In this document: piece by piece, positions 36,745-39,061 of the stretch | How the letters are laid out: each line of letters opens with the position of its first letter | Position numbering within the stretch: position 1 is the first letter of the stretch | Origin: Acidimicrobiaceae bacterium | Lineage (GTDB): Bacteria; Actinomycetota; Acidimicrobiia; Acidimicrobiales; RAAP-2 | Direction: 5' to 3' | Assembly (NCBI GenBank): GCA_003167415.1 | Contig: PMTF01000019.1 | Coordinates: 62,001 to 126,000, forward strand | Length of the DNA stretch: 64,000 nucleotides | The notes under the pieces: generated by a model | Told to the model about the DNA's origin: nothing | What the model saw: the letters and a program-made list of their open reading frames with translations, nothing else | The model's database searches: none | Position numbers and translations under genes: made by a program

Positions 36745-38211
36745 GTGAGCGACCGGCAACTCGCCAACTCCCAGCTCGGTTCCCTCGAGTACGACCCGGC
36801 CCCGGAATCGGCCGCGATCGCCAAACTGGAGTCCAGCTACGGCCTGTTCATCGACGGCGGATTCAGCGACGGCGAGGCTCACGAGCAGTTCGCGACGGTC
36901 AATCCCGCCAACGAAGAGACGCTTTCCATGGTCGCCCAGGCGAGTGCCGCTGATGTCGATCGGGCCGTGTCGTCAGCGCGTCGCGCTTACGACAAGGTCT
37001 GGTCCAAAACGACCGGCGCGCAACGTTCGAAGTACCTCTTTCGGATTGCCCGGCTGATTCAGGAACGCTCGCGCGAATTAGCGGTCGTCGAAACTCTCGA
37101 TAACGGCAAGCCGATTCGCGAATCGCGCGACGTCGACATTCCCCTGGCGGCCGCGCATTTCTTCTACTACGCCGGTTGGGCCGACAAACTCGATCACGCC
37201 GGATTCGGAGTGAATCCGCAGCCGTTGGGCGTCGCCGGACAGATAATCCCTTGGAACTTCCCGTTGTTGATGGCCGCGTGGAAACTGGCGCCGGCCTTGG
37301 CCGCCGGCAACACCTGCGTTCTGAAGCCGGCCGAGACCACGCCACTCAGTGCGCTCGTCTTGGCCGAGATCCTGGAGCAGGCCGAACTGCCCCCCGGCGT
37401 CGTCAATATCATCACCGGCGACGGCTCGACGGGTGCCGCGCTGGTCGATCACCCCGACGTGGACAAGATCGCCTTCACCGGATCGACTGAGGTCGGTCGG
37501 ATGATTCAACAGCGCACCGCGGCCAGCCATAAGCACCTGACGCTCGAGCTCGGGGGCAAGGGCGCCAACATTGTCTTCGACGACGCGCCGATCGACGAGA
37601 TGATCGAAGGCATCATCGACGGCATCTTCTTCAACCAGGGTCACGTCTGTTGCGCCGGCTCACGCCTCTTAGTCCAAGAGTCGGTGGCCGACGAAGTTTT
37701 GCGACGCCTGGTTCGTCGCGTCGAGCAGCTTCGCGTTGGCGATCCCCTGGACAAGAACACCGACGTCGGCGCGATCAACTCCGCGGCGCAACTGCTGCGC
37801 ATCCGCGAACTGACCGCCTTCGGCGAGAGCGAAGGGGCCACGCGCTACACGAGTTCGTGTGAGTTGCCGCAGAAGGGCTACTGGTTCGCCCCCACCGTCT
37901 TCGCCGACGTCGCCCAGTCGCACCGAATCGCGCGCGAGGAGATCTTCGGCCCGGTGCTCTCGGTGCTGACCTTTCGCACGCCGGAAGAGGCCGTCGCTAA
38001 GGCCAACAACACGAACTACGGACTCGCCTGCGGGGTGTGGAGCGAGAAGGGGAGCCGCACGCTCTGGGTCGCCGAGCGATTGCGGGCCGGAGTCATCTGG
38101 GCCAATACTTACAACCGCTTCGACCCGACGAGTCCGTTCGGGGGCATGCGCGAGTCGGGGTTCGGTCGCGAAGGCGGACGGCACGGACTGGAGGCGTACC
38201 TCAATGTCTGA
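36745..38211 (+). CDS. Aldehyde dehydrogenase, catalytic subunit (ALDH16-like first half)
   Basis: This 488-residue NAD(P)-dependent dehydrogenase has 'GQIIPWNFPLLMAAWKLAPALAAGNTCVLKPAE', cited as cofactor region, 'FTGSTEVGRMIQQ', the general base Glu in 'LELGGKGANIV' and the nucleophile in 'FNQGHVCCAGSRLLV'. The C-terminal 'EEIFGPVLSVLTF' and 'FGGMRESGFGREGGRHGLEAYLNV' are normal. The GTG begins one base after deoC. The next gene overlaps by eight bases and encodes a catalytic-domain-less ALDH. Together they equal one ALDH16-type chain. Likely substrate from context: acetaldehyde from DeoC. Confidence 0.93.
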   Translation: MSDRQLANSQLGSLEYDPAPESAAIAKLESSYGLFIDGGFSDGEAHEQFATVNPANEETLSMVAQASAADVDRAVSSARRAYDKVWSKTTGAQRSKYLFRIARLIQERSRELAVVETLDNGKPIRESRDVDIPLAAAHFFYYAGWADKLDHAGFGVNPQPLGVAGQIIPWNFPLLMAAWKLAPALAAGNTCVLKPAETTPLSALVLAEILEQAELPPGVVNIITGDGSTGAALVDHPDVDKIAFTGSTEVGRMIQQRTAASHKHLTLELGGKGANIVFDDAPIDEMIEGIIDGIFFNQGHVCCAGSRLLVQESVADEVLRRLVRRVEQLRVGDPLDKNTDVGAINSAAQLLRIRELTAFGESEGATRYTSSCELPQKGYWFAPTVFADVAQSHRIAREEIFGPVLSVLTFRTPEEAVAKANNTNYGLACGVWSEKGSRTLWVAERLRAGVIWANTYNRFDPTSPFGGMRESGFGREGGRHGLEAYLNV

Positions 38212-39061
38212 CGCCCGACTCGATGTCCGCAAGACCTACAAGCTGCTCATCAACGGAGCCTTCCCGCGCTCGGAATCAGGACGAAGTTACGAGGTGACCT
38301 CGGCCAAGGGCGCGTTCCTCGCCAACGCGGCCCAAGGCTCGCGCAAGGACGTGCGCGACGCGGTCACCGCCGCGCGCGGCGCGCAGGCGAAGTGGTGGAA
38401 CGCGACCGCCTACAACCGCGGCCAAGTGATCTACCGCCTGGCCGAGATGGCCGAGTCGCGCCGCGACGAGCTCGCCGAACACGTCGCGCTCGCTGAAGGA
38501 ATGAACTCGAGGACGAGTCAAAAGACCGTCTCGGCGTCGATCGATCGCATCGTCTGGTACGCGGGCTGGACCGACAAGATCGCCCAGGTGCTCGGCGGGA
38601 CCAACCCGGTGGCCGGGCCGTTCTTCAATTTCTCGATTCCCCTCCCGAGCGGCGTCGTCGGGGTGATCAGCGTCCAGGAGTCGTCGCTCCTCGGATTCGT
38701 CGACGCCGTACTGGCACCGATCTGCGTCGGCAACACGGTCGTCGCCCTGGCCAGCGAGGCACGGCCCACGCCGGCCGTACTACTGGGGGAGATGACGTCG
38801 TCCTCGGACTTTCCCGGCGGCGTGCTCAACGTCGTGACCGGACTTACCGGCGAATTGGCCCCGGTGCTCGCCGCCCATGAAGACGTCGACGGTCTCGATC
38901 TTTCCGGCGTCACCTTCGAGGTCGGCGACGAGCTCGCGGCCCTGGCCGCCGGCTCCATCAAGCGGGTCTTTCGCCCCCACGAGAAGGAGAGTGACTCCTC
39001 GCTTCGACGCTTGCGTGCCTTCGTCGAGACGTCCACCGTGTGGCACACGATTGGACAGTGA
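38204..39061 (+). CDS. ALDH-like protein lacking the catalytic domain (ALDH16-like second half)
   Basis: This 285-residue protein aligns by eye with the N-terminal cofactor-binding half of aldehyde dehydrogenases: 'YKLLINGAFPRSESGRSYEV', 'AARGAQAKWWNATAYNRGQVIYRLAEM', 'PSGVVGVISVQESSLLGFVDAVLAPICVGNTVVAL' (cited in parts) and 'FPGGVLNVVTG'. It then ends with a short 'FRPHEKESDSSLRRLRAFVETSTVW' tail. There is no nucleophile Cys motif and no Glu base, so it cannot be an active dehydrogenase alone. ATG at 38204 overlaps the catalytic ALDH gene by eight bases, and the stop overlaps the PNP ATG. It is probably a structural or regulatory partner. Confidence 0.9.
   Translation: MSDARLDVRKTYKLLINGAFPRSESGRSYEVTSAKGAFLANAAQGSRKDVRDAVTAARGAQAKWWNATAYNRGQVIYRLAEMAESRRDELAEHVALAEGMNSRTSQKTVSASIDRIVWYAGWTDKIAQVLGGTNPVAGPFFNFSIPLPSGVVGVISVQESSLLGFVDAVLAPICVGNTVVALASEARPTPAVLLGEMTSSSDFPGGVLNVVTGLTGELAPVLAAHEDVDGLDLSGVTFEVGDELAALAAGSIKRVFRPHEKESDSSLRRLRAFVETSTVWHTIGQ

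Follow-up and report, generated by a model that had tools for sequence, protein, structure and literature searches.

In a 64,000-nucleotide stretch of an Acidimicrobiaceae genome (assembly GCA_003167415.1, contig PMTF01000019.1, positions 62,001 to 126,000; hereafter the window), two adjoining genes downstream of deoC encode an aldehyde dehydrogenase (ALDH) of the ALDH16 family that is split into two chains, designated alpha (open reading frame 1, ORF1) for the catalytic half and beta (ORF2) for the non-catalytic half. At the level of the aligned sequences the losses of the two chains are complementary, with the C-terminal strand and the greater part of the hairpin missing from alpha and the catalytic domain from beta. 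The pair probably functions as an obligate alpha-beta ALDH16, in which the catalytically dead subunit would contribute the oligomerisation flap and scaffold and which would oxidise the acetaldehyde released by DeoC. We infer the stoichiometry, the coupling, the activity, the dependence on nicotinamide adenine dinucleotide (NAD) and the acetaldehyde substrate, as well as the contact between alpha and beta, the last because a fused homologue holds both halves in one chain and because the losses of oligomerisation parts are complementary.

Division of catalytic and flap elements between alpha and beta

Each gene finds its best sequence match among solved structures in one half of LsALDH16 (PDB 6MVR, 6MVS, 6MVT, 6MVU), in which an ALDH-like part that has no catalytic domain comes after a catalytic ALDH part; LsALDH16 is a single chain of 767 residues, whereas the window has two genes and two chains. 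Alpha scores 555 bits against 6MVR in a phmmer search of the PDB, with the next protein at 426 bits, and beta scores 148.7 bits against the 6MVR C-terminal domain (best stretch 499-765), with the top ordinary ALDH at 95.9 bits. Pfam PF00171 covers profile positions 4-458 of 461 in alpha and 9-232 in beta. In section 8 of PMC8160307, ALDHs are described as domain-swapped dimers; LsALDH16 is said there to combine a catalytic and an NAD-binding domain with a C-terminal cofactor domain that is non-functional, and to have tertiary contacts that mimic quaternary ones. The traits expected of ALDH16 include a dimer that imitates the ALDH tetramer and the union of both parts in a single chain of about 750-800 residues; here the parts occupy two ORFs in different frames, and the pair is therefore filed as a split variant rather than as a plain ALDH16 member.

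In alpha, the residues Cys302, Glu268, Asn171, Lys194 and Glu399 (alpha numbering) are kept in 130 of 130 aligned sequences, window included, the count for Glu268 being partly by construction since its motif also served the script in locating alpha. The conservation of these active-site residues would fit NAD-dependent aldehyde oxidation. In structural comparison with VIA-align, 6MVS stands at rank 44 by Z and yet has the top identity of the listed rows (52%), and by superposition the alpha model ends at ALDH2 residue 488. When alpha is modelled alone, the predicted local distance difference test (pLDDT) falls below 50 at residues 1-12, 299-304 and 449-477. An N-terminal signature resembling Y.PAPES occurs in 101/130 alpha, 4/9 fused and 0/34 ordinary ALDHs, and was rejected as a family definition because it is too variable.

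Beta consists of a Rossmann-like region, a full hairpin (residues 126-150) and a C-terminal strand (274-282), without a catalytic domain. Across the 130 beta sequences the Cys and Glu399 columns are always empty, the Glu268 position is never Glu, the Lys194 position is never Lys, and Asn is found at the Asn171 position in only three. The protein is open, full-length and conserved, with a mean column identity of 68% (56 sequences), and its AlphaFold2 model has a mean pLDDT of 90.9 (56 sequences). Foldseek places 6MVR at rank 1 for this model (E 1.3e-23, TMq 0.90), with ordinary ALDHs close behind. With VIA-align the 50 highest rows for beta, which span about 1.5 Z units, are all ordinary ALDHs and do not include 6MVR, a neutral or adverse result. 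Residues 8-285 of the beta model superpose on residues 16-497 of ALDH2 (1cw3) over 274 residues with a root-mean-square deviation of 2.0 and Z of 35.6; because the superposition spans this range, it is the catalytic domain in the middle that is missing from beta and not the second half. The fold of both genes is that of the ordinary tetrameric ALDHs (ALDH2, 1CW3), with the catalytic domain skipped in beta, but ALDH2 has its catalytic domain and flap on one subunit and here they are divided between two genes.

An earlier note on this DNA had proposed a split ALDH16 with an eight-base overlap and a summed length of 773 residues (488 + 285), all of which is borne out. Its description of ORF1 as a complete ALDH with Cys and Glu stands for the residues and fails for completeness, since the C-terminal strand is absent and the hairpin shortened. 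ORF2, which it took for an N-terminal-half homologue without nucleophile or base, indeed has neither Cys nor Glu but is more than an N-terminal half, as the C-terminal strand is kept. Derivation of beta from an unrelated family, which the same note had wanted checked, is ruled out by the best sequence match to the 6MVR C-terminal domain together with the Foldseek rank.

Classic ALDH subunits dimerise via a flap composed of a hairpin and a C-terminal strand. The hairpin segment measures 12-15 residues in 126 of 130 alpha and 25 residues in 130 of 130 beta, compared with 12 in the catalytic half (9/9) and 22 in the C-terminal half (9/9) of fused ALDH16 proteins and 18-26 in ordinary ALDHs (34/34). 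The C-terminal strand was scored with a 7-position matrix derived from the 34 ordinary ALDHs, reading alpha tails from the anchor Tyr and beta tails from the last Trp. Ordinary ALDHs score 1.6 to 20.4 when each is left out in turn, the lowest tenth lying at 6.7. In 92/130 alpha sequences fewer than seven residues follow the anchor Tyr, too few for a score, and none of the remaining 38 exceeds 1.3; 66/130 stop three residues past the conserved Tyr, the shortest ordinary tail being nine. Beta scores 3.4 to 18.1 in 130/130, with 107 at or above 6.7, and the C-termini of the fused proteins score 9.1 to 15.7 (9/9). A strict strand motif is found in 0/130 alpha but is an unfair test because it misses 12 of the 34 ordinary ALDHs (finding 22), and a loose motif finds 34/34 ordinary ALDHs but also 36/130 alpha. 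A catalytic half without its own C-terminal strand, the strand instead ending the extra part, is, as read from these alignments, an ALDH16 feature noted here and not drawn from the literature as a definition.

Split arrangement, deoC linkage and ancestry

The named loci comprise the best 80 of 559 relatives, and hence the closer ones, among which the closest beta sequences come from Acidimicrobiaceae metagenome-assembled genomes; 79 are titled Actinomycetota and one (L061) Acidobacteria. The latter carries a split pair with deoC, has 61% identity to the window beta, is closest to the Acidimicrobiaceae-type loci and possibly represents a mislabelled genome. A profile search for beta was also carried out in a survey of 246 Actinomycetota genomes of at least 90% completeness, in most of which 9 candidates only were scored. 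Matches at E 1e-40 were obtained in 76/246 genomes, of which 57 were taken as beta and the rest as ordinary ALDHs, the weakest counted beta scoring 309 bits and the best other match 175 bits. The 58 survey stretches represent 56 of the 57 beta genomes (the window's own being excluded) together with genomes G048 and G054, and alpha lies upstream of beta in 57/58, the remaining stretch (L198) starting at beta. No beta match was found in phages.

Phyla beyond Actinomycetota were sampled through plasmid records only, of which 168 had a match and 12 were examined. These contain nine fused ALDH16 genes (L120, L122-L129), a split actinomycete pair from Nonomuraea (L121), a broken gene (L119) and an ordinary ALDH (L130). 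In L119, from Sinorhizobium meliloti AK57 pSymB, the ALDH16 frame looks broken; S. meliloti 1021 (L122) has an open, fused frame. The ALDH16 comparisons leave out L119 and L130, and the set of relatives leaves out L028 (a run of N) and L027 (which begins inside beta). The 130-pair sets further exclude the relatives L009-L038, the partial or uncertain loci L065, L074, L080, L084, L090, L097 and L180, two with truncated alpha (L196, L209) and L198, which has no alpha.

Alpha and beta occupy separate ORFs in 80/80 named and 57/57 testable survey loci. An 8-nucleotide (nt) overlap as in the window is found in 55/80 named, 28/29 same-genus and 15/57 survey loci and a 4-nt overlap in 18, 0 and 23, respectively, values which favour 8 nt to some degree as the script picked the start codon nearest that position; the literal ATGTCTGA occurs in 52/80 named and 8/57 survey loci. 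Independent of the start codon chosen, the frame of beta with respect to alpha is +1 (8-nt overlap) in 70/137, -1 (4-nt or 1-nt) in 51/137 and other in 16/137. As this relative frame varies by lineage, a conserved frameshift product is unlikely. A core resembling a Shine-Dalgarno site precedes the chosen beta start in 69/81 and 40/56 homologous loci, where windows placed at random within genes would give 8.9 and 7.1. This arrangement suggests that the two genes may be translationally coupled. In locus L180 the gap between alpha and beta holds an ORF that by eye resembles a secreted metallophosphoesterase.

Upstream of the pair, and in the same orientation, deoC is found in 77/80 named loci, the other three (L065, L080, L090) ending at contig ends, and in 55/58 survey stretches, where the other three (L196, L198, L209) likewise end at contig ends. 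By a match at E 1e-20, deoC is present in 56 of the 57 beta genomes, the exception (G248) having beta near a contig end. The linkage extends to the fused ALDH16 genes of Pseudomonadota, in which deoC precedes in 9/9 loci (seven by annotation; L122 and L126 by tblastn), and so holds in both the split and the fused form, which the earlier note had proposed to survey. Three of the fused loci have the order ABC permeases, aldose epimerase, ribokinase, deoC and ALDH16, and one has rbsD/fucU, ribokinase and a transporter downstream of ALDH16. Such gene content would read as uptake, phosphorylation and cleavage of deoxyribose followed by oxidation of the aldehyde. In L171 and L179 a distance of about 1.9-2.5 kb separates alpha from the upstream deoC, and the gap in L179 includes an ORF that by eye resembles a PIN-domain protein. 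In L065 the genes that come after beta, for the mutase and purine-nucleoside phosphorylase, have the opposite orientation, a rearranged operon.

In a tree of the shared region, from which the row L074_cat (end branch 7.4) was excluded, whose bootstrap had yet to converge (correlation 0.984) and in which some of the ordinary rows are long-branched, alpha and beta group apart from the 34 ordinary ALDHs (97/84). All alpha-type halves form one clade (100/96) and all beta-type halves another (100/100), with the fused sequences forming one clade on each side. This topology would fit duplication of a single ALDH ahead of the divergence between the Actinomycetota and Pseudomonadota versions. The split alpha group alone is weakly supported (48/94), so that either the fused or the split state may be the older.

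Proposed mechanism and alternatives

In the proposed mechanism, alpha would bind NAD and hold the active site, and beta would retain the Rossmann scaffold and the oligomerisation flap (hairpin and C-terminal strand) after loss of the catalytic domain. Loss of the alpha flap would make the alpha-beta heterodimer obligate and shaped like the classic ALDH dimer, with the beta flap docking on the alpha catalytic domain, and the heterodimers would probably pair again to alpha2-beta2. Nucleoside phosphorylases and the mutase would supply deoxyribose 5-phosphate. DeoC would split this into acetaldehyde and glyceraldehyde 3-phosphate, and the former would be converted to acetate by the ALDH pair with NAD as oxidant. 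The release of acetaldehyde by DeoC is described in the introduction of PMC6365646.

Several observations weigh against this mechanism. The poor 449-477 segment of lone alpha, which might fit a missing partner, may stem from a shallow alignment (40 sequences). The division of flap elements also has its outliers: four of the 130 alpha have a hairpin segment of 18 or 23 residues, 23/130 extend at least nine residues past the Tyr, equal to the shortest ordinary tail, but without a strand-like score, and two of nine fused catalytic halves have a strand score above 0, up to 5.5. In L180 (genome G073) about 1.3 kb separates alpha from beta, so that the two chains can be encoded apart. Beta is missing from 5/37 genomes of the window's own genus (present in 32/37), one of which (G028) has a short fragment match, and from 22/24 other genomes of the order (present in 2/24), so that its distribution among the nearest relatives is patchy. 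Among the sampled genomes deoC is present in 196/246 and beta in 57/246; being much commoner than beta, DeoC does not need ALDH16. The treatment of the kinase/aldolase pathway by Price et al. (PMC6365646) has 0 occurrences of "aldehyde dehydrogenase".

The excess of deoC over beta bears on the identity of the aldehyde, since most sampled deoC genomes are without beta and disposal of acetaldehyde is thus possible by other means. The same split heteromer could then act on a different aldehyde, for example one of sugar origin that arises when deoxyribose or ribose is broken down, or a toxic by-product of nucleoside catabolism. This is considered unlikely, as deoC is the constant neighbour in two phyla despite differing operons and the aldehyde product of DeoC beside glyceraldehyde 3-phosphate is acetaldehyde. 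Separate genes that can lie apart, as in L180, and the good predicted fold of lone beta would also suit a regulatory or chaperone role for beta, through transient binding to alpha or an action on DeoC, with an alpha homodimer working without beta. Such a role is improbable given that alpha is without the C-terminal strand in 130/130 (by score or length) and has the short hairpin in 126/130, and that beta is covalently joined to the enzyme in nine Pseudomonadota loci.

Two further alternatives concern the break between the genes. The short overlap, together with the existence of a fused product in another phylum, might point to a programmed frameshift that yields fused ALDH16 alongside two separate chains; this is highly improbable, as +1 and -1 beta frames both occur and no single conserved slippage would serve both, and beta has its own Shine-Dalgarno-like site in most loci. 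An indel in a fused gene would likewise give adjacent overlapping frames, and the S. meliloti gene L119 looks broken in this way, so that the break could in principle be a frameshift, sequencing error or decaying pseudogene of this isolate. Such an accident, which the earlier note had named as a refuting outcome, is given almost no weight: the survey of split loci refutes it, with the split in all 80 named and all 57 testable survey loci, a relative frame that differs by lineage, a Shine-Dalgarno-like site, and a beta that is open, full-length and conserved. The obligate alpha-beta heteromer acting on DeoC acetaldehyde is retained as the probable reading.

Genomic setting and relation to known ALDH16 proteins

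The source assembly has 2.66 Mb in 29 contigs and a single deoC over the cut-off. In the window, deoC, alpha, beta, purine-nucleoside phosphorylase and a PGM/PMM-type mutase are co-directional with nearly no gaps (Table 1), the ATG of the phosphorylase sharing 1 nt with the beta stop, and the neighbours on the minus strand are adenosine deaminase and thymidine phosphorylase. These two genes (41517-43921) form with the operon a compact nucleoside-catabolism block. The operon contents given in the earlier note hold for deoC and the purine-nucleoside phosphorylase, both above NCBIfam cut-offs, and for its pentose-phosphate mutase only at the level of the PGM/PMM superfamily. In the NCBIfam comparison of window proteins the mutase reaches no cut-off, and the support is from Pfam at superfamily level, for which reason the specific name is an inferred one; the gene probably provides the phosphopentomutase step of the operon.

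Table 1. Features of the alpha-beta locus (window coordinates)
Feature	Position	Strand	Basis
deoC, deoxyribose-phosphate aldolase, 340 amino acids (aa)	35721..36743	+	TIGR00126, 180.7 bits (cut-off 117.3)
alpha, catalytic subunit of split ALDH16, 488 aa	36745 (GTG)..38211 (TGA)	+	best PDB match 6MVR residues 10-475
GGAGG, Shine-Dalgarno-like, within alpha coding sequence, 9 nt upstream of second ATG	38190..38194	+	sequence
8-nt overlap ATGTCTGA, alpha stop / beta start	38204..38211	+	sequence
beta, non-catalytic subunit of split ALDH16, 285 aa	38204 (ATG)..39061 (TGA)	+	best PDB match 6MVR
purine-nucleoside phosphorylase	39061..39879	+	NF006054, 296.6 bits (cut-off 218)
PGM/PMM-superfamily phosphomutase (start approximate)	39879..41531	+	PF02878, PF02879, PF02880, PF00408 above cut-off
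adenosine deaminase, convergent	41517..42611	-	NF006847, 556.8 bits (cut-off 412)
thymidine/pyrimidine-nucleoside phosphorylase	42641..43921	-	NF004490, 585 bits (cut-off 269)

Compared with the solved DeoC proteins that match it best, the window DeoC is extended at the N-terminus by about 80 residues. Its best PDB alignments start at residue 80-81 and take in the segment KTSTGK, which aligns to the DeoC structure 1JCL and places the protein in the DeoC family; the lysine of this segment is the Schiff-base residue. Of 143 linked deoC matches, 140 show homology to the window DeoC that starts ahead of residue 60, and the extension of linked DeoC could be a docking site for ALDH16. In the Streptomyces lividans expression table of PMC6302529, purine-nucleoside phosphorylase (SCO4917 orthologue), deoC (SCO4914) and adenosine deaminase (SCO4901) have raised counts in one of two strains, and the ALDH pair is absent from the portion of the table examined.

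A fused bacterial ALDH16 with solved structure is already known. The fused genes that follow deoC on Pseudomonadota plasmids (Caballeronia, Sinorhizobium, Ensifer, Agrobacterium, Paracoccus, Shinella, Phyllobacterium and Pseudochrobactrum) share with the window pair the same halves, the short hairpin and absence of a strand-like tail in the catalytic half, and the deoC linkage. They differ in that the halves are joined by a linker and that several have sugar ABC transporters, an epimerase and a ribokinase as neighbours in place of nucleoside phosphorylases. Human ALDH16A1 belongs to the same family and is likened here by description; it is said to be without catalytic residues altogether, whereas the catalytic half is intact in the window. 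It is called a pseudoenzyme in PMC10650815, where a table gives its substrate as unknown. Among the papers listed in a literature search, no title or abstract deals with a split ALDH16 or its deoC linkage, which is weak evidence of absence as most subscription literature lay outside its reach, and priority for both is uncertain.

A broader and tentative proposal, rather doubtful at present, is that ALDH16 arose by tandem duplication of an ALDH beside deoC, after which one copy would have lost its catalytic domain and the other its then dock-less flap, giving an obligate heteromer encoded by two genes in Actinomycetota and as one chain elsewhere. The ancestral function, and a clue to human ALDH16A1, would be the handling of acetaldehyde from DeoC/DERA, possibly in complex with an N-terminally extended DeoC. 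Animals possess both DERA and ALDH16A1, and we take human DERA to be a long form of DeoC, extended at the N-terminus in the same way as the window DeoC.

The position beside deoC points to a job for the poorly understood ALDH16 family, and the recurrence of this linkage in two phyla, in split and fused forms, provides a concrete substrate prediction for bacterial ALDH16. With the catalytic domain lost from one gene and the flap from the other, the pair looks like a clear example from nature of duplicates that have divided the parts of one protein. As the odd C-terminal domain is a separate protein in the split form, it can be removed, mutated and added back, making the need for this domain directly testable.

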